A stretch of 20,627 nt of DNA from a virus: positions 1 to 20,627 of IMG/VR virus record IMGVR_UViG_3300017765_000092; one strand, written 5' to 3'. Below are positions 8,900 to 20,627 of this stretch, piece after piece (positions within the stretch are counted from its first letter, which is position 1; the number at the start of each line of letters is the position of its first letter). The position numbers were made by a program, and so were the translations under genes. The notes under the pieces were generated by a model that was not told the DNA's origin, made no database searches, and was given only the letters and a program-made list of their open reading frames with translations.

Positions 8900-10660
8900 T
8901 TATGTTGTAAATTCTAAGGTTGTATGATCAGGGACCTGGGTTATACCTATATTTCTTGCATAGGTTCCTTTAAATTTAACTTGATCTATATATTGGGTTT
9001 CTAAAGCTTTTTTTAGTGCAGAGTTTTTGCATGCTATAGTTCTATTATAGTTATTTGGATCTTTGGAACCTGGTTTAAAACCAATATAACTAATGTGAAT
9101 CCATGATCCCGAATTATACTCTGGGAATTCCCATATTAATTGATTATAAGGGATATTATTATTAACTATATAATTAAATATTTCATAAGTAGGAACTCCA
9201 GAAACTGCAATATCAACAGCTCTTCCTATTCTATGTTCAGATCTTGGGGATCCTCCTATAGCAGTATTTAATGTCCCAACTCTTAATCCTGAGTTGATAT
9301 TTAAATTAGGGTATTGTGATAATAAAGGATCAATACAATTTAGAACTAAACTATCTAGATTATACATAATATTAGGGGCTTGGTAAGCTCTACCATCTGC
9401 TCTATCTGCTCCAGGGAAGTTAGCAATTTTCTTCTCTTTAGCAGTTGAGCTTTTAATTACTGTTGCTAATGTAATTCCTTTATTTCCTAAAGGAGCGTCT
9501 ACCTTAGTATATATATCTTGGTCTTGTATTTCGGTATAATCAGCTTCAGATGAAATAGTATTTGGTTCTATACCATTATATGATATATCATTTTCTGTAG
9601 ATTCAAGGTCTTTACGTACATCTTCTCCTATAGAAATATCATAAATAGACATTGATACTTCTAATAATCCTTCTTCTTGGGCCTCATTTAAAGCAGCAAA
9701 TACTGGGTCAGGATCTTCAGGTATCTCATCTGGTAATGATGGGGTAGTAGCTTCATCTACAGTAGGAATAAGATTAGTAAATGATATAGGTTCAAGTATT
9801 AGTTCTTGATCCGGGATAGGATTTGGGATAGCCTCAGCAGGAGATTTACTAATTTCTTCTAAAGGTTTAGGAATGGGTTTATAAGTTGAGTTTAAAGAAT
9901 CTATGTTTGTAGAGGTAGCATCAATAGGAAGATTTTGATTTTCTAACATATAAATAGAAGCAGCATCCTCAGTTACATTTTCTTGACTACCATTTCCTAA
10001 ACTTAGAATCATAGCTTTATCTCCCACGCTTGGGTTACCATCATTAGGGTTATCTGTAACGTTATTACTGATTGCATTGGTTCCAGGGGGACCTGTTGTG
10101 GTGAATCTAACTCTTTGACCGTTTTTTCCCTCCATAATTGAATCTCCTTCACCCGGGGTAAGAGGACTTAAATCAGCATTTTCTTTAAAATATGTACCTA
10201 ATTTTAAATCTTCAGAATTTGATTCATTTCCTACATTACTGCTTCTTTTAGGTTTTCTTCTTTTAGATTTAACCTGATTGGGTAATGCATTACTAGCAGT
10301 ATTATTATGAATTCCTATTGCTGGGGTATAATAAGTAGTTTTATTACTAATATCACCACCTATATCACTATAATACTCAGGGCTAGGACCTTCTATAATT
10401 TGCACAATATCACCAATAGAGGGATAAGTAAAATTATTTCTATTTAGTGGTTTAGCTGAAGGGAGATTAATAGTATTAATAACCTCTTGGTTAAATCCTA
10501 TCTCAGTAAAAAATATTTTACCTAAATCTTCATCTGTTTTATAAGCACGGTGATTTCGTGATAGAATTATGTCTTCTACCCTTTTATTTTGATTTTGAGA
10601 TTTAGAGGAACCAGCGCGGCCTACTTTAGCTCCTTGATTACGATTCTTTTTTAGACTCAT
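8900..10660 (-). CDS. gp5-like baseplate central spike protein with C-terminal M15 peptidase domain
   Basis: This is a 586-residue protein. Residues of about 45-120 look like the gp5-type OB-fold (KIFFTEIGF, then FTYPSIGDIVQIIEGPSPEY). Around residues 175-250 a second strand-rich stretch (RVRFTTTGPPGTN, then GDKAMILSLGNGS) also fits gp5-like proteins. A long acidic, Pro-rich linker follows. Residues of about 430-525 match the M15_3 family of zinc D-Ala-D-Ala carboxypeptidase / endolysin-type enzymes: SGLRVGTLNTAIGGS, then SEHRIGRAVDI (zinc-ligand His and Asp) and WIHISY (third ligand His). The enzyme would cut the peptide cross-links of peptidoglycan as the tail penetrates the cell wall, the role played by the lysozyme domain in T4 gp5. 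All zinc ligands appear intact. The gene starts 23 nt inside the end of the upstream gene and is followed 1 nt later by the spike-like gene. Confidence 0.82.
   Translation of the reverse strand: MSLKKNRNQGAKVGRAGSSKSQNQNKRVEDIILSRNHRAYKTDEDLGKIFFTEIGFNQEVINTINLPSAKPLNRNNFTYPSIGDIVQIIEGPSPEYYSDIGGDISNKTTYYTPAIGIHNNTASNALPNQVKSKRRKPKRSSNVGNESNSEDLKLGTYFKENADLSPLTPGEGDSIMEGKNGQRVRFTTTGPPGTNAISNNVTDNPNDGNPSVGDKAMILSLGNGSQENVTEDAASIYMLENQNLPIDATSTNIDSLNSTYKPIPKPLEEISKSPAEAIPNPIPDQELILEPISFTNLIPTVDEATTPSLPDEIPEDPDPVFAALNEAQEEGLLEVSMSIYDISIGEDVRKDLESTENDISYNGIEPNTISSEADYTEIQDQDIYTKVDAPLGNKGITLATVIKSSTAKEKKIANFPGADRADGRAYQAPNIMYNLDSLVLNCIDPLLSQYPNLNINSGLRVGTLNTAIGGSPRSEHRIGRAVDIAVSGVPTYEIFNYIVNNNIPYNQLIWEFPEYNSGSWIHISYIGFKPGSKDPNNYNRTIACKNSALKKALETQYIDQVKFKGTYARNIGITQVPDHTTLEFTT
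9086..9373 (-). other. M15_3 peptidase domain within the spike protein
   Basis: This segment encodes about residues 430-525 of the spike protein. The visible catalytic pattern is the S-G-x-R strand, GGS...S-E-H, V-D-I and W-I-H, which gives the His, Asp and His ligands of the single zinc in this family. Confidence 0.8.
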
Positions 10661-10994
10661 CTTTTGCTACTTCTTCAGCTATTGATTGTAATTGTTTGAG
10701 TTCTTCATCAGTTAATAATGAATCCCCACCACCAGAAGTAGCGTTATTACTTATACGCTGAATAACGGTCATCATTTTGATTAGATGTTCATCATTTTTA
10801 ACACCTATTTCTAGATATTCTTTAATAAGAGGAACAACTACAGGAGCATCTCCTATGTTCTGTATTAAAGGTTTTAGTTCAGCAATTAAAGAATTAATTT
10901 GTTTATCCTTTTTTTTACTATTATTATAAATTTCTTTAAATACATCAGAAGATGTTTTCCCATCAAATATTACTGTATCAAGGGGATTACTCAT
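10638..10994 (-). CDS. Small helical phage protein between the late sigma factor and the spike gene
   Basis: This is a 118-residue protein of unknown family. I chose the ATG at 10994 (MSNPLDTVIFDGKTSSDVFK) because the frame further upstream offers only a TTG at 11018; the ATG gives a short 8-nt overlap with the end of the sigma gene. The sequence is mainly helical and charged (EIYNNSKKKDKQINSLIAEL, then HLIKMMTVIQRIS), with a Gly-rich hinge SGGGDS and an acidic C-terminal helix. Its 3' end overlaps the spike gene by 23 nt, so it is probably translated together with it. It may be a tail assembly chaperone or hub accessory, but nothing in the sequence proves this. Confidence 0.62.
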   Translation of the reverse strand: MSNPLDTVIFDGKTSSDVFKEIYNNSKKKDKQINSLIAELKPLIQNIGDAPVVVPLIKEYLEIGVKNDEHLIKMMTVIQRISNNATSGGGDSLLTDEELKQLQSIAEEVAKDESKKES

Positions 10995-11694
10995 GGTTAT
11001 AAATATACCCAGTTTCAAGATATTCGGAATAACGTTTCTGATATTCCCCTTTCATTTTTTTAACTACTTTAGTTATTATAGGAGTTTCTTCACCTGTGAT
11101 TTCTCTAATAAAAATATAAATAGCTTTTTTATTAAAAATTTCTAGATGTTCTCTTTTTTTAAATATAGTTAAAACGGCATCTGCAACTTTTATCTCTTCA
11201 GCCTTTTTAAACATACGGTGCATTTTCACATCCATATATGCTATAAATAAATCTAAAAATTCAACTTTTTCACCTCTAACTACTTGACGATCAAATTCAT
11301 TTAGTATATTGTCGTCAGTATCTACATCACCTAAATCCGCTTTAATTTTCTTTTTAGCGTAATTTTTATTATTATAGAGTATAAGGTAGTTTTTACCTAC
11401 AATACTAAAATATGAAAATGCTTTACCTTTACCTGCTTTGAAGTAATGGAGTTTCTCGAGTAGGAAGCAGATAACCTCGTGTTTTAAATCCTCGAGGTCA
11501 TCTACTTCAGTATAATAAAATTTAAATGTGTGGATAAGATTTTCGGCTAATTTATAAAACGAATGGTGAATTCGTGAATTATAAATCCGATTTCTTTCAT
11601 CTTGATCTTCGCTCGCTAAATATTCTATTATTGCGTGCTCTGTATCTTCTGTAAAATATTGTCTTTTACTTTTGCGTCCTCTTTTTTTAGCCAT
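10987..11694 (-). CDS. gp55: Late-transcription RNA polymerase sigma factor, gp55-like
   Basis: This 235-residue protein begins with a basic tail (MAKKRGRKSKRQYFTEDTE). It then has a sigma region 2-like helical block: EDQDERNRIYNSRIHHSFYK, LAENLIHTFKFYY, the acidic VDDLEDLKHEVICFLLEKL, and the aromatic segment KAGKGKAFSYFSIVGKNYLI followed by LYNNKNYAKKK. This arrangement matches the short phage sigma factors of the T4 gp55 type, which direct host RNA polymerase to late promoters (T4 consensus TATAAATA) and contact the sliding clamp through a C-terminal tail. No region 4 DNA-binding domain is visible, as in gp55. It starts 4 nt after the small membrane protein and is followed by late structural genes, consistent with a late-gene switch encoded beside its targets. 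Length and order support the call. Confidence 0.82.
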   Translation of the reverse strand: MAKKRGRKSKRQYFTEDTEHAIIEYLASEDQDERNRIYNSRIHHSFYKLAENLIHTFKFYYTEVDDLEDLKHEVICFLLEKLHYFKAGKGKAFSYFSIVGKNYLILYNNKNYAKKKIKADLGDVDTDDNILNEFDRQVVRGEKVEFLDLFIAYMDVKMHRMFKKAEEIKVADAVLTIFKKREHLEIFNKKAIYIFIREITGEETPIITKVVKKMKGEYQKRYSEYLETGYIYNHE

Positions 11695-15507: not shown

Positions 15508-15888
15508 TCAACGTTTTCCACCGTCGTATTCAACAGCGTGTCCTTCTTTAATTAATTGTTTATTTACATCTACTAAAGTTATAGAAGAATCTGTGGATAC
15601 AGGAGATAAATTACTTACAAATACAGTGGCTAACGCCCTTCCATATTTTCCAAGTCCTGATACTTTTAATATACAGTGATTCTTATTATATTCTAAAATT
15701 TCTTGTAGCCGTGCTTTGGCAGCAAGACCACGTTTTTTCTCTTCTAGGTTCCTTGTGCGCGATTCAGGGGCATTCATACCCTCCATCCTTACACGAGTTT
15801 TTATATGGGCATGGAACCCTAAATCAATGGTGACATCAATTGTGTCACCATCAACTACTCGGTCCACTATTGCGTGGTATTCGTACAT
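15508..15888 (-). CDS. Staphylococcal-nuclease-like protein (SNase/TNase domain)
   Basis: I chose the ATG at 15888, 1 nt after the stop of the membrane-protein gene; a TTG at 15900 would add four residues. The 126-residue protein is a minimal SNase domain with no signal peptide: VDGDTIDV (Asp15, equivalent to staphylococcal Asp21), TRVRMEGMNAPES (Arg34, equivalent to Arg35, and Glu42, equivalent to Glu43) and GKYGRALATVFV (Arg84, equivalent to Arg87). The residue matching the calcium ligand Asp40 is Asn39. The family cleaves DNA and RNA with calcium. In phages it may act in host DNA breakdown or nucleotide scavenging; next to a membrane protein it might instead act at the envelope. The Asn change could lower but need not abolish activity. 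Confidence 0.8.
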   Translation of the reverse strand: MYEYHAIVDRVVDGDTIDVTIDLGFHAHIKTRVRMEGMNAPESRTRNLEEKKRGLAAKARLQEILEYNKNHCILKVSGLGKYGRALATVFVSNLSPVSTDSSITLVDVNKQLIKEGHAVEYDGGKR

Positions 15889-15889
15889 T

Positions 15890-16108
15890 TTATTTTGCAA
15901 ATTTTTCTAAGCCTGCTATACCAAAGCTACCTAAAGTTACAAATACAAATGAGTTGTAAATAGCTTCGTTGATTACTAAATCTTGTCCAAAATAGCCTGT
16001 TGCTAAATCGGTTATAGCAAATACTACCATAATAGCAAATGCTGAAAAACCAACTACTGATTTTTCGTTAATGTCGTTTTCATCTTTAAAAATATCTTTA
16101 AATGCCAT
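15890..16108 (-). CDS. Small two-helix membrane protein, possible holin
   Basis: This 72-residue protein has two hydrophobic segments: VVGFSAFAIMVVFAITDLA (about residues 18-36) and YNSFVFVTLGSFGIAGLEKF (about residues 51-70). A charged N-terminus (MAFKDIFKDENDINEK) and a short polar loop complete it. Size and topology fit small phage holins that make pores in the inner membrane at lysis, but no endolysin gene is adjacent, and many small phage membrane proteins look alike. It starts 12 nt after the outer-membrane protein gene, with an A/C-rich leader. Confidence 0.62.
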   Translation of the reverse strand: MAFKDIFKDENDINEKSVVGFSAFAIMVVFAITDLATGYFGQDLVINEAIYNSFVFVTLGSFGIAGLEKFAK

Positions 16109-16120
16109 AATTGTGTTGTT

Positions 16121-17164
16121 TTAAATTATTCTATAATTAAAACCAACTGAAAAATCATGCCATGCACGATTCCAGTACTTATGGTATTTTCCTTCTGAGA
16201 AAAGACCTAATCTTTTATTTACTTGCCATCCTAAAATTAATCCGCCTGTATAATCAAACCAAGTATTACCATCTACAAAATTAGTATACGAATATTCATT
16301 TTTAGCACTTACGTGAAGTGGTAATATACTAGCCCATGAGTGAAACCAAAATGATTTAGTATAGTGGTAATAATCATATCCTAATACTAACGAATGGTTC
16401 CATTGATATGGTAGTAAAGCCCTTTCTTGATCAACATATTCATTTAATACATTAGGAAGTGCTACAGCATTCCATACTATATTATTTTCGGCAACTACAG
16501 CTCCGTCTGGATTAACCCATTCGCCTTCAAAATTAGTACCGTAACCCTGTTCAATAGCTATATTTGTAAAATCTGCTCCTGCTAATTCGGATAGAGGATC
16601 AAATCCATAAGGTTCAGAAAAACGTTGTACTAAACCAACGTTTAAAGAAAATTCTTTTGCTATATTATATCTGTAACGTTGGGATGATTCAAAATATCTT
16701 AAATCAGCAAATCCATCTTGTACATATTCTACTTTTACTATCCAGTGATCATGAACATATCTTAAAAAGTGTTGTTGATCAACAAATTTACTTCCTTGTT
16801 GTCTTTTATAATCAAATTCAAATAAATATTCTAAACCTTCTACGTTACCTACAGTAGCAGCATCTGAAACTGAACTTTCAGTACCATTATAAAAAACATT
16901 TTTTCTGTTTTCATAATCTAAACGAGCAATTTTTCTAACCCCAAAAGCTAAAGTATAATCAAAGGGAGTAGACTCAATATTTTCTTCTAAAATACCCGTA
17001 GTAGGATTTATAGAATAAATACTAACATCTGCTAATGAGTTATTACCTGTTACTGCTGTATAAAAAGTAGCAAATTTAAGTTGTTGTTTACCCCAGTCTT
17101 TAAGTTGTTGGGATTGTGCTAAAAAAGGGACACAACATAATAAAGTAATTAAAAGCTTTTTCAT
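16121..17164 (-). CDS. Predicted outer-membrane beta-barrel protein with signal peptide
   Basis: This 347-residue protein begins with a clear signal peptide (MKKLLITLLCCVPFLAQSQQ; cleavage around residue 16-18). The rest alternates hydrophobic and polar residues with many aromatics (for example YLFEFDYKRQQ, HWIVKVEYVQDG, SLVLGYDYYHYT, GLILGWQVNKRLG) and ends with strand DFSVGFNYRII. A terminal aromatic-rich strand is typical of outer-membrane barrels inserted by the Bam machinery. It overlaps the T9SS-cargo gene by ATGA, so the two are probably translated together. It does not match the PorP/SprF proteins that often accompany some T9SS cargo. The host outer membrane is the likely location; possible roles include a phage-encoded surface change, receptor block or anchor, all inferred. 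Confidence 0.75.
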   Translation of the reverse strand: MKKLLITLLCCVPFLAQSQQLKDWGKQQLKFATFYTAVTGNNSLADVSIYSINPTTGILEENIESTPFDYTLAFGVRKIARLDYENRKNVFYNGTESSVSDAATVGNVEGLEYLFEFDYKRQQGSKFVDQQHFLRYVHDHWIVKVEYVQDGFADLRYFESSQRYRYNIAKEFSLNVGLVQRFSEPYGFDPLSELAGADFTNIAIEQGYGTNFEGEWVNPDGAVVAENNIVWNAVALPNVLNEYVDQERALLPYQWNHSLVLGYDYYHYTKSFWFHSWASILPLHVSAKNEYSYTNFVDGNTWFDYTGGLILGWQVNKRLGLFSEGKYHKYWNRAWHDFSVGFNYRII

Positions 17165-20100
17165 TGTTTAACAATTTTTTTAGTAAACTGGAGATCATTA
17201 TGAGTAAGAATTAAATTATAAATCCCTGCCTCAAATCTGCTTAAATCCAATTGATTCACGTTAGTTTCTTGTAATACGGGCTGTCCTATGGAGTTATAGA
17301 GGACTGCGTTTATACGCAAGTTACTTGCGATATTTATGCGATCTCTTGTGGGGTTGGGGAAAATAACTATTTGAGTTTCACCAAATTCCGTTATATTAGT
17401 AACTGTATTTTCATCACAGTAATTATATATTGTTTGACATCCATCTGCCCACTCATTATTACAACAACTCGGACTAACATCAATCACCCAAGCAAAACAT
17501 TCACTTTCTAATTCTAATAAATTGTAAGTTTCAACTACTGAATCTATACAATTAGCATATACGGTTTCACAGGTACCGTTATCTGTGTTTGCTAATTCAT
17601 CATAGTTAGCTGCTTGTGAGTCTGTACAACCATAAATAAATGGTTCACAACTAAAGTCTTCAGTATTTGCTTCTGGATTATAATTAAATGCTGTGGGATC
17701 AGTACATCCTTCAACTACATCTACACAAGTTCCATTATCAGCATTTGCTAATTCGTTATAGTTAAAAGCATTTGGATCAGTACAACCATAAATCGCATCT
17801 ATACAACTGCCATCCTCAACATTAGCTAATTCGTTATAATTAAGTGCTAAAGGATCCATACATCCCTCTACTATTTCTTCACAAGATCCATTATCAGTAT
17901 TTGCGTCTGGGGTATAATTTAAAGCTGTCTCATCTAAACATCCAAATATTATTGCTTCACATGATCCATTATCTGTATTTGCTAATTCATCATAATTAAA
18001 TGATGTGGGGTCAGTACAGCCAAATATTTCAGCTTCACAGGTATCATTATCAGTATTAGCTTGGGGGTTGTAATTAATAGCTTCTTCATCAGTACAACCT
18101 TCAACTACTGATTCACAACCAACATTCGTATTAGCATTTTCATCATAGTTAAAAGCAGTTTCATCTGTGCAACCAAATACTATAGATTCACATGATCCAT
18201 CATTTACATTAGCACTAACATTAAAATTAAATGCTTCTATATCAGTGCATCCCTCAACTATAGACTCGCATCCTACATTTGTATTAGCTAGGGGGTTGTA
18301 ATTAAAGGCAGTTTCATCAGTACATCCAAATACTACTTCTACACATGAATTATCATCTGTATTAGCTAGTGGATTATAGTTAAATGCTGTTGGGTCAGTG
18401 CAACCTAAAATTGGAAGTATACAGCTGAAGTCTTCTGTATTGGCTTCAAGGGTGTAATTTAATGCCTCAGGGTTAGTACAACCTTCTATAATGGGTACAC
18501 ATGAGTTATCATCAGTGTTGGCTAATGGGTCATAGTTGAATGCTAATTCATTAGTACAACCAAGTATTTTATCAACACATGTTTCATTATCTACGTTTGC
18601 TCCCTCATCAAAGTTAAATGCATTATTATCTGTACAACCAAATACTGCTAATGTTTGGCAATCCCCATTATCAAAATCGGCTTCAAATCCTTGGGTATAG
18701 TATTCTAAATACCCAGCCTGAGTACATCCTGGTTCATAATAACAACTTCCATCGTCTATATTAGCCTCGTCATTATAATTAAGTGCTATTGGGGATTGAC
18801 AACCAAAAATAAGCTCTTCACAAGTGTTACCACAATATAAATCTATTTCATAAGTATACCACCCACTTTCTCCAGTAAATGGAATCGCACTAAAGAAAGG
18901 AACATCAATAATAACATCACCTTCGGGGTTAGTTAAAGTAAACCCACATTGTTGAATAGTACTAATTGATTGGGGAGAAATGAAGAAATATATGTAAGCC
19001 TTTTTAGAGGCATCTAAACCGGATACATTAAATGATAATTCGGTGCCATCATTGGGGCCCATTTGATATTGAGGTGAAAAATACCATTGTTGGTATATTC
19101 CAACCCAACTACCAAACCAACCATCTCCAACACCATCTGTAATAGTTAAGGTATAATCACAAAATTGAATAACATCTTCAGTATTAGCATCTGGGTTATA
19201 ATTAAACTGAGTTGGATCTAAACACCCTAATACAATAGGAGTAACACAAAATGATTCAAGTGGGTTATCTATAACAGCTTCAGGGTTGTATTCTACATAA
19301 TTGGGATCAGTACATCCTACTAAATCATCTATATCTTCACATACTATTGGAGTAAATTGGTCTGATCCTGTTATATAACCAAAGTTTCCATCTGGGTGCT
19401 CGTCTTGAAGATTGTATAATACTTCGCCTTCACAATCTAAAATTTGAATATTACCTGGTTGTCCATTTACTCCTATTATTCCATCGCCGTATGAATCTTG
19501 TATTACAATATCATAAGGTTGAGCGATAGGAACACAAACACCAGTTGTAACAGGAATACCAGGAGAAGAACCAGCATAAGTACCTACGGGGGCAGATGCT
19601 ACATCCCCAAAATCCCCATATAAAATCCAACTTATTTCACCACCCCACTGATCTGGGGTTACTATAATTTCAACTAAAGTTTCACCTAAAGCACATTCTG
19701 TGGTTTGATCTATGCAAGAACCATCGTCAAAATTGGACCAAGGATTCCAGTTAATAGCATTGAAATTAGTACATCCAGGAATAGCACCACAAGGTAAACA
19801 CGATTCCCAACAATAATTAGGAAGAACTGTTTCTTCCTCTTCAATTACTGTTAATGTTCTATTAATAAATCCAATTTGATCAAGTTGGAAACAAGAACCC
19901 CCTTCAATTCCTACAGGTAATTCTTGTAAATCTGGGTTATTAACATCAGCAAATTTCCATAAATAATTTCCTGCTTGTATAGGAATAGTCACAAACCATT
20001 CATCATCCTCATCATATTCCATAGGAATAACTTGCCACCCATTCCAGTTACCTAATACACCAGGTGTTTCAATTTCAGGGGGAGCATTAGCTAAATTAAC

Positions 20101-20514
20101 TCTGAACATTACATCTGTTGTGGGAACTTCACAGGGTAATAAGTTAAAAGTATAACTAACTTCAGAAGATCCAAAAGCAGAATCTTCAAATATTATACCT
20201 TCACAATTATTAGCAGAAATAAAAAATCCTTCTCCAAATTCACAACAGATCCCATCACCATATACATCTAATATAGTAAAAGTATAATCTATCCCCGATT
20301 GAAGGAATAATCTTTGTTCGGCTGTACCATTAATATATTCAGGTAATCCATAGTCAGGGCTTGTAATTAAAGGTATAGTATCCGTTCCTTGAGTAATAAC
20401 CCAAGCAGTTTCTTGTGGGAACTGATCAAATTGAATAAAAAGATCTAAGTAAGTTGGCTGAGCCAATCCTGTAAGACCAATAAGTAATAAAAGGGGGGTT
20501 AATAAATGTTTCAT
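17161..20514 (-). CDS. Secreted Cys-rich repeat protein with T9SS type A sorting domain
   Basis: This is a 1117-residue protein. Residues 1-18 are a signal peptide (MKHLLTPLLLLIGLTGLA). Three Gly-Asp-Gly-containing beta modules lie near residues 25-128, 272-385 and 455-565 (DVYGDGICCEFGEG, then DSYGDGIIG, then DGVGDGWFG). A CBM48/AMPK-type carbohydrate-binding-like stretch lies at about 135-200 (GVLGNWNGW, then DEWFVTIPIQAGNYLWKF). There are 19 Cys-framed repeats of 20-24 residues (GC-T/L-D...N-Y...AN-x-D...C): four dispersed, fifteen tandem. The Cys-rich module NNEWADGCQTIYNYC precedes the C-terminal sorting domain at residues 1047-1117 (VIFPNPTRD, NSIGQPVL, LDLSRFEAGIYNLIL, KIVKQ). T9SS type A cargo passes the outer membrane and is attached to the cell surface. 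It starts in a TAATG overlap with the upstream phage gene and runs into the outer-membrane protein gene by ATGA. The genomic context is phage; the protein style is typical of marine Flavobacteriia. Confidence 0.9.
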   Translation of the reverse strand: MKHLLTPLLLLIGLTGLAQPTYLDLFIQFDQFPQETAWVITQGTDTIPLITSPDYGLPEYINGTAEQRLFLQSGIDYTFTILDVYGDGICCEFGEGFFISANNCEGIIFEDSAFGSSEVSYTFNLLPCEVPTTDVMFRVNLANAPPEIETPGVLGNWNGWQVIPMEYDEDDEWFVTIPIQAGNYLWKFADVNNPDLQELPVGIEGGSCFQLDQIGFINRTLTVIEEEETVLPNYCWESCLPCGAIPGCTNFNAINWNPWSNFDDGSCIDQTTECALGETLVEIIVTPDQWGGEISWILYGDFGDVASAPVGTYAGSSPGIPVTTGVCVPIAQPYDIVIQDSYGDGIIGVNGQPGNIQILDCEGEVLYNLQDEHPDGNFGYITGSDQFTPIVCEDIDDLVGCTDPNYVEYNPEAVIDNPLESFCVTPIVLGCLDPTQFNYNPDANTEDVIQFCDYTLTITDGVGDGWFGSWVGIYQQWYFSPQYQMGPNDGTELSFNVSGLDASKKAYIYFFISPQSISTIQQCGFTLTNPEGDVIIDVPFFSAIPFTGESGWYTYEIDLYCGNTCEELIFGCQSPIALNYNDEANIDDGSCYYEPGCTQAGYLEYYTQGFEADFDNGDCQTLAVFGCTDNNAFNFDEGANVDNETCVDKILGCTNELAFNYDPLANTDDNSCVPIIEGCTNPEALNYTLEANTEDFSCILPILGCTDPTAFNYNPLANTDDNSCVEVVFGCTDETAFNYNPLANTNVGCESIVEGCTDIEAFNFNVSANVNDGSCESIVFGCTDETAFNYDENANTNVGCESVVEGCTDEEAINYNPQANTDNDTCEAEIFGCTDPTSFNYDELANTDNGSCEAIIFGCLDETALNYTPDANTDNGSCEEIVEGCMDPLALNYNELANVEDGSCIDAIYGCTDPNAFNYNELANADNGTCVDVVEGCTDPTAFNYNPEANTEDFSCEPFIYGCTDSQAANYDELANTDNGTCETVYANCIDSVVETYNLLELESECFAWVIDVSPSCCNNEWADGCQTIYNYCDENTVTNITEFGETQIVIFPNPTRDRINIASNLRINAVLYNSIGQPVLQETNVNQLDLSRFEAGIYNLILTHNDLQFTKKIVKQ
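17164..17376 (-). other. T9SS type A C-terminal sorting domain
   Basis: This segment encodes residues 1047-1117 of the secreted repeat protein. Key positions are the PNP motif, a Gly in NSIGQ, LDLS...GIYNL, and the closing KIVKQ. In Bacteroidota this domain targets proteins to the type IX translocon and is removed by the PorU sortase when the cargo is attached to the surface. Confidence 0.88.
17569..18804 (-). repeat. Tandem Cys-framed repeat array, 16 units
   Basis: Sixteen consecutive coding repeats of about 25-32 residues lie here, at about residues 571-982. Each has the frame G-C-x-(D/N), a hydrophobic/Asn-Tyr core such as AFNYNP, then AN-x-D and a closing Cys. Two units (end ANTNVGC) are one residue shorter than the norm. 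Three further diverged units lie upstream at about 19776-19714, 19317-19246 and 19222-19160. The units differ from one another at many third positions, so they have diverged and are not recent copies. Confidence 0.85.
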
Positions 20515-20627
20515 TAAAATTTGCTCATTATGATTTCATCAATGGATCCTTGTACCTCTTTGCGGGTAGCTTCCATTTTCATCATAATGTTAGCCTGAAA
20601 CCTCGCTACTTCTTCTCCATCTTCTAA
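20514..20627 (-). CDS. C-terminal end of an upstream phage gene, cut by window edge
   Basis: Only the last 37 residues are present (LEDGEEVARFQANIMMKMEA, then a Lys/Glu-rich helix ending EIIMSKF). They form a single charged helix without known motifs. The stop overlaps the ATG of the secreted repeat protein (TAATG), which places that protein inside the same transcript. Function cannot be judged from this piece. Confidence 0.6.
   Translation of the reverse strand, partial: LEDGEEVARFQANIMMKMEATRKEVQGSIDEIIMSKF

Follow-up and report, generated by a model that had tools for sequence, protein, structure and literature searches.

A hijack of the type IX secretion system (T9SS) by phage-encoded cargo was proposed in 2020 for Cryophage (Nat Commun, PMC7468147). 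According to the parts of that paper drawn on here, phage proteins with type A sorting domains might serve superinfection exclusion or competition between strains. The genes concerned are three variable ones (endoglucanase, GH39 and PA14) in a cryoconite-hole phage, and partners such as a barrel, a thioredoxin or a coiled coil do not appear in the same parts. In the crAss-BACON cluster 2 contigs, T9SS sorting-domain proteins, one of them with BACON, lie near head genes; these are gut phages, for which the relevant portion of the source mentions no linked envelope cassette (PMC6949934). Among cultured phages, gp015 of Flavobacterium phage immuto (NC_055915) is a 243-aa Cohesin protein with a type A sorting domain (TIGR04183, E 9.3e-12), encoded at least 30 kb from the annotated endolysin, holin and baseplate genes. 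Both immuto and LR756502 have TIGR04183 matches and had been found before eight cultured Bacteroidota phages were picked blind to the result; none of these eight has one.

Other systems resemble the locus described below in arrangement or in proposed purpose, as far as the excerpts used here describe them. In Flavobacterium johnsoniae, the gene of the T9SS cargo SprB is followed by that of the outer-membrane barrel SprF, yet SprB is a chromosomal gliding adhesin with a type B tail and SprF belongs to the PorP/SprF family (PMC9127263). Phage T5 makes the surface protein Llp, which prevents adsorption and keeps phage from being inactivated on debris; it is an unrelated lipoprotein that involves neither T9SS nor barrel (PMC4728585). 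Rz/Rz1 spanins pair an inner-membrane protein with a periplasmic part and an outer-membrane partner, near lysis genes, but that partner is a lipoprotein (PMC6139136).

Here we describe a phage locus in which a T9SS cargo gene is accompanied by genes for an inner-membrane protein with a coiled-coil-like tail (TMcc), an exported protein of thioredoxin fold (TRX) and an outer-membrane β-barrel (BAR) that does not match the PorP/SprF family. The first-pass annotation, which had considered the cargo gene by itself, knew of no established phage system of this kind; the Cryophage proposal had put the same hypothesis into print. The four-gene setting was not found in print.

A type A cargo in a marine phage genome

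The window is the whole stretch of 20,627 nucleotides of the IMG/VR record IMGVR_UViG_3300017765_000092 (Table 1). All 23 genes found by a simple caller lie on the minus strand, in agreement with the phage block described at first, and its tail genes were recovered as a gp25-like protein (PF04965) and a gp6-like baseplate wedge in Pfam and PHROG. A late-sigma gene had been read into the same block at 10987-11694. This assignment found no backing: neither Pfam nor PHROG matches the gene at E<=0.01, and a seven-sequence profile of it has no PDB match at E<=1. The T4-type late promoter motif is TATAAATA; upstream of the cassette genes it is not enriched over shuffles and so lends no support to late expression.

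Table 1. Position and character of the cargo gene, its parts and its neighbours in the window
Feature	Position	Strand	Description
T9SS type A cargo	17161..20514	(-)	1117 aa, open reading frame intact
Type A sorting domain (TIGR04183 / PF18962)	17164..17364	(-)	residues 1051-1117
Cys-rich pre-tail stretch	17380..17553	(-)	about residues 988-1045; C.AWVIDV...CC...W...C...YNYC
Array of 14 GC....AxNY....N....C repeats	17569..18639	(-)	residues 626-982, spacing 25-26 residues
CBM20/CBM48-like domain	19840..20127	(-)	about residues 130-225; predicted, from model and Foldseek
Signal peptide	20458..20514	(-)	about residues 1-19; direct reading by eye
TRX, 3' end	20515..20627	(-)	cut by window end; TAA overlaps cargo ATG; matched to TRX family
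BAR	16121..17164	(-)	347-aa outer-membrane β-barrel with signal peptide; ATGA overlap with cargo
Small membrane protein	15890..16108	(-)	72 aa; relative is gp192 of Flavobacterium phage immuto
SNase-like nuclease	15508..15900	(-)	adjoins cassette in the window's phage group

As first annotated, the cargo reading frame is open over its full length and overlaps both neighbours; the overlaps are TAATG with the TRX stop and ATGA (4 nt) with the BAR start. From the N-terminus, the protein consists of a signal peptide, a β-sandwich, the CBM20/48-like domain, a second β-sandwich, 17 Cys-rich repeats, the Cys-rich pre-tail and the sorting domain. The signal peptide noted earlier is again seen by eye and ends in A-Q. 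Such an end is usual in Bacteroidota. Three of the 17 repeats lie upstream of the array of 14 that begins at residue 626, and the repeat DNA has a period of 78 b at 17678-17904; the pre-tail stretch is seen again in relatives. In Foldseek comparisons of the predicted structure, the CBM-like domain resembles 1z0n (TMt 0.73) and 8x8k (TMt up to 0.75). Only this domain stands out: the matches of the whole N-terminal model (pTM 0.38) were discarded as meaningless.

The C-terminal 67 residues match TIGR04183 (E 4.4e-10, 39.4 bits against a cut-off of 23) and PF18962 (E 3e-9, 37.5 bits against 27). Both scores exceed the curated cut-offs and lie far beyond chance, which upholds the type A assignment made from the letters alone. 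By profile search the domain occurs once in the whole record, at the position in Table 1, and Pfam and NCBIfam scans of the window cargo find type A only, with no type B domain (TIGR04131 / CHU_C). Its sequence marks the protein as a true T9SS type A cargo encoded by a marine phage, the assignment to Bacteroidota being made by the tail. With this sorting domain, the product of the phage gene is probably exported by the host T9SS, and its passage to the cell surface is very likely.

The tail is also a stable feature of the family. Among 42 distinct C-termini (44 after dereplication, minus a fragment from L007 and the type B tails of L032 and L043, with the window added), 40 match TIGR04183 at E<=0.001 and two miss. 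The type B tails belong to a second cargo in those two loci, and one phage group has a shortened tail that lacks the PNP motif. Sorting domains are found in 26 of the 27 large cassette contigs, over the cut-off in 25 and exactly once in 25; no match was seen in the L099 contig.

A linked set of four genes

When loci are anchored by TMcc or TRX and are well flanked, all three partners TMcc, TRX and BAR are present in 76/76, the anchor itself by construction. Loci anchored by TMcc contain BAR and TRX in 42/42 cases each, and those anchored by TRX contain BAR and TMcc in 34/34 each. These counts rest on the best-scoring 80 relatives per scan and lean to close relatives; 81 of 157 loci were left out for short flanks or no usable anchor, and the 76 become 64 after dereplication by BAR similarity. 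A cargo is seen in 72 of the 76, its tail found by its own profile in 62. The remaining four loci keep the core (L155, L181 and the pair L198 and L224, which share one contig), and L155 has a 183-aa mini-cargo in place of the cargo. Seen from the other side, loci found by BAR or cargo, with at least 5.5 kb on each side of BAR and contigs not dereplicated, have the cargo in 38/38, TRX in 36/38 and TMcc in 35/38.

The four genes occur in three orders, which vary between phage groups and are all rotations of one circle. When phage groups defined by hand were compared in 15 pairs, five pairs had only cassette families in common among those detected in the sampled flanks. Over 32 loci the distances of the four proteins correlate with r 0.74-0.91, a level reached in 0/999 permutations, the highest value being that of BAR and cargo (r 0.91). 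At least 203 TMcc and at least 554 TRX relatives were confirmed among about 600 candidates each; therefore the cassette is common in IMG/VR. tblastn searches of the cultured phages in INPHARED gave no match for cargo, BAR, TMcc or TRX, and a profile search of the immuto genome, run without a positive control, gave none for BAR or TMcc.

In the window's own group the cargo-BAR junction recurs with the same downstream phage genes. The adjoining SNase-like nuclease is probably not a cassette member. Lysis neighbours of the cassette are less clear in this group than in several others.

Taken together, it is highly probable that the T9SS cargo sits, as the outermost part, within a conserved phage envelope cassette. 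The hijack proposed in the first-pass annotation survives in part: the gene belongs to the phage, encodes a true type A tail, and its product is probably exported and may coat the infected cell as suggested; but with four genes linked, the cargo alone was the wrong unit. That reading had overlooked the thioredoxin fold of the upstream gene, the 17 Cys-rich repeats, the four-gene linkage and the lysis genes that adjoin the cassette in several phage groups.

The partner proteins

Scans of family libraries gave no named family for BAR or TMcc. The AlphaFold2 model of BAR is a predicted transmembrane barrel of moderate quality (pLDDT 73, pTM 0.68) that names no specific family; its best matches in both structure comparisons are outer-membrane barrels, with Z up to 11.4. 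The window BAR has no family in Pfam or, at E<=1, in NCBIfam, and 36 members have no NCBIfam match at E<=0.01, TIGR03519 (PorP/SprF) included. A PorP/SprF identity was therefore ruled out. A TIGR03519 search of the genomes gave no match anywhere, which is uninformative by itself.

TRX has a signal peptide by eye, and its profile finds thioredoxins in the PDB (2vim, E 5.8e-7), with the thioredoxin matches of the two single proteins scanned falling below the Pfam cut-off. The alignment lacks CxxC at the thioredoxin position, and TRX is therefore not a thioredoxin by function; as its other Cys are not conserved, a role as redox partner was dropped. TMcc has one membrane span and a coiled-coil-like tail, and would fit an i-spanin by composition. 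In the cultured phage P2559S, a gene one gene from the endolysin was considered as a TMcc relative (E 0.013) and set aside as a chance match, the conserved motifs being missing. In a crude lipobox scan no cassette protein of the window group fits, one group D TRX (L098) does, and some loci have lipoprotein candidates at other places, for example L028:834-1106.

What the cassette may do

What purpose could hold these four genes together? Our confidence here, be it in receptor blocking or in an opening of the outer membrane at lysis, is lower than that in the cassette itself. We tentatively favour, at somewhat less than an even chance, a role of BAR and cargo in remodelling or masking the cell surface, and that of lysis debris, against phage binding. 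The infected cell would produce all four proteins; Sec would carry TRX, BAR and cargo across the inner membrane, and BAR would enter the outer membrane. Through the host T9SS the cargo would reach the surface and there lose its tail by cleavage, and the repeat protein would stay attached or be shed. Cell and debris would then no longer bind phage, much as with T5 Llp, while TMcc and TRX might support the BAR-cargo assembly from inside. This reading is supported by the overlap of BAR with candidate receptor-like genes in group D, as llp likewise adjoins the receptor-binding gene of T5 (PMC4728585, in the part used here). In part of the group (L083-L085, L090, L092, L094, L096) there is an 8-nt overlap between BAR and a gene for which the one member tested, in L090, has a sub-threshold LamG match; in L099 BAR overlaps a 1931-aa gene read as tail-fibre-like, and in L091, L093 and L097 no receptor-like gene was recognised beside it. 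Receptors of flavobacterial phages are presumed to be part of the gliding machinery (PMC7345892), and the adhesins of this machinery, SprB and RemA, require the T9SS pore SprA (PMC9127263).

Lysis genes stand beside the cassette in several phage groups, so that a rival function is possible; such neighbours suit a role in lysis as well as they suit surface masking, or better. There TMcc would be an i-spanin-like protein and BAR an outer-membrane partner replacing the lipoprotein o-spanin, which we consider doubtful. Just as doubtful is the remainder of this scheme, with TRX bridging the periplasm and the cargo loading or loosening the outer surface until the outer membrane opens after the endolysin. 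As a whole, a mobile egress device that spans the envelope with a part in each layer, and that would open or reorganise the outer membrane at lysis, appears rather unlikely. The set does offer one protein for each envelope layer, and its neighbourhood is suggestive: in group C it is flanked by endolysin and holin, in group B the distance from a holin to the cargo tail is 2.1-3.0 kb, and group D has weak holin matches (E 1.8e-5 to 1.3e-4) or DUF5675 at a distance of 0.2-1.5 kb. A gene that we read as M15-peptidase-like comes after TRX in L181 and after the mini-cargo in L155, and the immuto relative of the 72-aa gene, gp192, sits just before endolysin and holin. A lysis family is found within 4 kb of the cargo tail in 17 of the 21 large contigs that match at least one of four such families. 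Yet 6/27 large contigs have none of the four, among the five large contigs of the window group three lack them and two have them 10.1 and 35.5 kb away, and in two group E contigs the lysis gene is 9 kb off. M15 is not among the four; the window has an M15 domain (E 1.1e-21, 8900-10660) among baseplate genes, 6.5 kb from the cargo tail. Endolysin or holin matches in PHROG were obtained for 16 of 141 genes adjacent to or inside the cassette against 3 of 141 controls (Fisher p 0.003; 141 of 192 control genes, those above 420 aa excluded from both sets), but the phages are related, and the tallies cover 25 of 39 and 25 of 84 families, with a control count that may be low. Eight of these 16 fall in phrog_894, to which the window M15 domain belongs, seven in phrog_3427 and one in phrog_2649. 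Placements in single contigs are not striking (0.014-0.74). Conservation also speaks against spanins, since mean column identity is higher in TMcc (76%) than in BAR (61%) or TRX (50%), as does a separate u-spanin-like gene in group C (L056, L072, L079). As to the literature, one source favours the lysis reading in that it leaves open, in the part used, that an outer-membrane protein acts as o-spanin, and lists phages of Bacteroides and Croceibacter among those without identified spanins (PMC6139136); against it, an excerpt of another reports u-spanins as the only spanins in Bacteroidetes phages (PMC12596118).

BAR might instead be a dedicated secretion or anchoring partner of the cargo in the outer membrane, like SprF/PorP, and so form a private branch of the T9SS. 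This idea is compatible with both surface masking and lysis, its purpose being any surface function. The near-strict co-occurrence and correlated divergence of BAR and cargo point in this direction, as does the direct succession of cargo and barrel genes in the window group, which recalls sprB-sprF (PMC9127263, as excerpted). The idea is unlikely, as BAR does not match the PorP/SprF model and is kept in loci where no cargo is seen, and as the tail is of type A; such tails are not known to require SprF. More improbable still is an accessory adhesin of host origin, an auxiliary gene whose repeat protein would help infected cells to stick to particles or polysaccharide. The CBM20/48-like domain would suit it, along with a weak Pullulanase X25 match, below cut-off, in a relative and the replaced cargo N-terminus of the close relative L040; for an adhesin, however, the company of TMcc, TRX and BAR in every locus would be superfluous, and a two-pattern BAR scan of 84,980 species genomes, which a more distant chromosomal relative could escape, yielded only 7 loci, all on MAG contigs and mostly with phage-type genes, four of them (L106-L109) with cassette neighbours. 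Finally, it is very improbable that the cargo is a virion component such as a tail fibre or decoration, or that the contig is chimeric. Tail genes are nearby, but a signal peptide and a sorting domain are unsuited to assembly in the cytoplasm, and a virion protein was rejected on these grounds. The chimera of host and phage sequence that the first-pass annotation had allowed for, like host contamination, is ruled out by the arrangement: the cargo-BAR junction recurs in dozens of viral contigs.

Implications

Phage genes with T9SS tails have so far been reported as separate, variable cargo; here a tailed cargo is a fixed member of a conserved four-gene set. A set that is conserved across phage groups, several pairs of which have no further detected gene in common, has the pattern of a dedicated machine, and BAR and TMcc are ready targets for work on structure and function. 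If the cassette were to act in egress, it would explain how marine Bacteroidota phages without classical two-component spanins pass the outer membrane. It makes testable how Bacteroidota phages deal with this membrane, and also whether phages exploit the T9SS to change the surface of their host cell during infection. The cassette points to a so far undescribed mode of remodelling the surface of infected cells.

The cargo protein and its neighbours

The window comprises a 20,627-base virus record from IMG/VR. The open reading frame that the first-pass annotation had described as T9SS cargo is present as stated, and its type A sorting domain holds up: the last 67 residues match the NCBIfam model (E 4.4e-10; 39.4 bits, cut-off 23) and the Pfam model (E 3e-9; 37.5 bits, cut-off 27). 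The overlaps with both neighbouring genes were also found, a TAATG junction upstream and ATGA downstream. The protein contains 59 cysteines and 17 repeats of the form GC....AxNY....N....C, of which 14 follow one another from residue 626 at a spacing of 25-26 residues. Its N-terminus, modelled from a 14-row alignment (pLDDT 63.4, pTM 0.38), is predicted to form two similar β-sandwiches flanking one CBM48/CBM20-like domain (1z0n, TMt 0.73; 8x8k, up to 0.75). CBM48 and CBM20 are glycogen- and starch-binding domains. Together with a sub-threshold X25 match in one relative, this modelled domain suggests that the cargo may bind surface glycans. In locus L040 the N-terminus is replaced.

The downstream neighbour, here called BAR, is a barrel in its AlphaFold2 model (pLDDT 73.2, pTM 0.68). 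Outer-membrane barrels rank on top in both Foldseek (NanC, E 6.8e-6) and VIA-align (highest Z 11.4; 174 residues superposed with an rmsd of 4.4), while none of 36 BAR members matched Pfam or NCBIfam at E<=0.01 and PHROG gave no match for the window's BAR. The profile of the upstream neighbour, TRX, matched thioredoxins in the PDB (2vim, E 5.8e-7) despite the absence of CxxC; its intact relatives are mostly 107-123 residues long. Baseplate genes are supported in the window, whereas the 'late sigma' label found no backing in Pfam, PHROG or PDB profile searches.

Features in the window and in related or cultured phages
Feature	Location	Remarks
Cargo	17161-20514 (-)	1117 aa
TRX, 3' end	20515-20627	small exported protein; gene cut by window end
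BAR	16121-17164	347 aa, signal peptide by eye; downstream of cargo
72-aa membrane protein, SNase gene		beyond BAR, downstream
M15 peptidase protein	8900-10660	586 aa
Mini-cargo	L143:10640-11179; L153:10664-11185; L155:10640-11176	~180 aa, signal peptide, one YGDGW domain, short tail
Second GC-repeat cargo	L043:11008-14774 (-); L032:17198-20619 (+)	type B tail
~585-aa protein	L028:3178-4932; L017:3136-4896	HExxH-like stretch
~99-aa protein	L130:10658-10954, 14 others	very basic
u-spanin-like proteins	L056:14071-14262; L072:6419-6610; L079:3553-3735	60-63 aa
C-type lectin and Cohesin + T9SS genes	L105:3528-6423	NC_055915 gp013-gp015
TIGR04183 tail	LR756502.1:325937-326140	L113/L122; uncultured, unannotated; 49 bits, on 202-codon open frame

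A cassette of four genes

Scans of IMG/VR retrieved 22 loci with the cargo and at least 79 distinct loci with BAR. Clustering of the genes around BAR revealed TRX and TMcc, a protein of ~94 residues that spans the membrane once and has a charged tail of heptad-like pattern, as its companions. Among 95 loci with BAR, 38 extend at least 5.5 kb on both sides; these contain the cargo (38), TRX (36), TMcc (35) and the 72-aa family (24), having been found via BAR or cargo and several sharing one contig. For this reason the linkage was approached in reverse, with TMcc and TRX profiles and the best 80 relatives per scan, which gave 157 loci, some on contigs seen earlier, of which 76 extend 7 kb either way from the anchor. 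Among these best relatives, BAR and TRX lie within 9 kb of TMcc in 42 of 42 loci, and BAR and TMcc within 9 kb of TRX in 34 of 34. The cargo was recognised by repeats or tail in 72 of the 76, the tail by the alignment A4 profile in 62; it was not found in L155, in L181 or in the single contig that L198 and L224 both represent.

Across 32 loci the four proteins, with the cargo represented by its tail, show correlated distances (r 0.74-0.91; 0/999 permutations as high), so the cassette is mostly inherited as one set. Among the loci with BAR its genes occur in three orders: TMcc-TRX-cargo-BAR (the window's group), cargo-BAR-TMcc-TRX and BAR-TMcc-TRX-cargo. Each is a rotation of the others, as if one circular set had been cut open at different places. 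Foreign genes are inserted at varying sites, for example in L099. When the phages were grouped by hand (A: the window, L002, L028 and others; B: L053; C: L056; D: L083; E: L099; F: L012), five of 15 group pairs had no detected family in common outside the cassette, with flanks of up to ~21 kb and the 72-aa family counted as cassette. In 84,980 species genomes, scanned with two patterns, BAR relatives were found at seven loci, all on MAG contigs; L106-L109 have the cassette neighbours and, in most, phage-type genes. The phage-like contigs L106, L110 and L111 belong to MAGs that carry the labels Nitrosopelagicus and Woesearchaeota, in all likelihood through binning errors.

Two further proteins recur nearby. 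The very basic one is the commonest cassette neighbour in a second locus set (15/141 genes), and the conserved ~585-aa protein immediately precedes the cassette in two groups, with no Pfam match of weight in the single member scanned (L003).

Variation of the cargo

TIGR04183 matches 40 of 42 distinct C-termini of the cargo family, a set from which three of 44 rows were excluded (the L007 fragment and the type B tails of L032 and L043) and to which the window was added. A single TIGR04183 match was found in 25 of 27 large contigs of 28-123 kb; of the other two, one carries a pair and one lacks any. The score exceeds the cut-off in 25 of the 27. In one group the tail is shortened to ~35 residues (ITDLLGRP...IYDDGSVERK.IK) and lacks the PNP motif (L160, L162, L167, L169, L183, L185, L187, L189, L191, L199, L202, L203), which offers a test of what makes a minimal T9SS signal. 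The mini-cargo of L155 has 183 residues, with a signal peptide, a single β-sandwich-like stretch and a tail end; its family also adjoins the cassette in L143 and L153.

L043 and L032 encode a type A cargo besides the type B-tailed one, which is directly followed by a small lipoprotein-like gene. CHU_C scores over its cut-off in both, TIGR04131 in L032 only.

Cultured phages

No INPHARED record gave a tblastn match to cargo, BAR, TMcc or TRX. Flavobacterium immuto phages do have relatives of the 72-aa protein (52.8% identity), where it precedes endolysin and holin, and of the gp6-like gene (45.8%). Immuto also encodes its own T9SS-tagged protein, gp015, with Cohesin and a type A tail; a neighbouring gene encodes a C-type lectin protein that also matches SdrD_B below the threshold. 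TIGR04183 was detected in two of ten records tested. These two, immuto and LR756502 (642 kb), were positives known beforehand; the other eight, all isolates, had none.

Possible purposes: receptor masking or lysis

Sequence or model shows the T9SS tail, the thioredoxin fold, the barrel, the membrane-spanning segment with its charged tail, and the linkage. In the proposed mechanism the host T9SS would export the cargo, BAR would insert into the outer membrane, and the cassette proteins would act jointly. Masking of receptors in the manner of T5 Llp (PMC4728585) seems somewhat more likely as their purpose than a part in lysis. The latter draws on the neighbourhoods of groups B, C and D and of L155 and L181. 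At least one of four lysis families (holin phrog_3427, PG_binding_1, Phage_holin_4_1 and DUF5675, the last not proven lytic) occurs in 21 of 27 large contigs, within 4 kb of the cargo tail in 17 of these and within 2.5 kb in 15, the group D holin matches being weak (17-20 bits); the remaining six contigs lack all four. Among the second set of loci, endolysin or holin matches account for 16/141 genes in or adjoining the cassette against 3/141 controls (Fisher p 0.003), counted among the top 25 families listed in related phages; they comprise eight phrog_894, seven phrog_3427 and one phrog_2649, a phrog_1224 match being taken as the same protein.

The lysis context is weak, however, in the window's own group (G001-G005), where three of five large contigs have none of the four families and two have one at 10.1 and 35.5 kb. 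M15 peptidases were outside these families; the window's M15 domain, 6.5 kb from the cargo tail, is C-terminal in a protein encoded among baseplate genes and matches phrog_894 'endolysin' (E 1.1e-21); this protein is perhaps a tail-associated lysin. A u-spanin-like gene (lipobox and C-terminal span), found in group C only, also speaks against a lysis role. PMC12596118 states that Bacteroidetes phages 'exclusively use USP', and PMC6139136 reports ~13% of genomes without identified spanins, including Croceibacter and Bacteroides phages, and names an OMP as possible o-spanin. A role of BAR for the cargo similar to that of SprF (PMC9127263) would be compatible with both masking and lysis.

Phage-encoded T9SS cargo is already in print for Cryophage, where PMC7468147 proposes host hijack and names superinfection exclusion as a possible role, and for crAss-like contigs (PMC6949934). 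The four-gene cassette was not found in searches of open-licence PMC papers, each of which covered fewer than its four parts.
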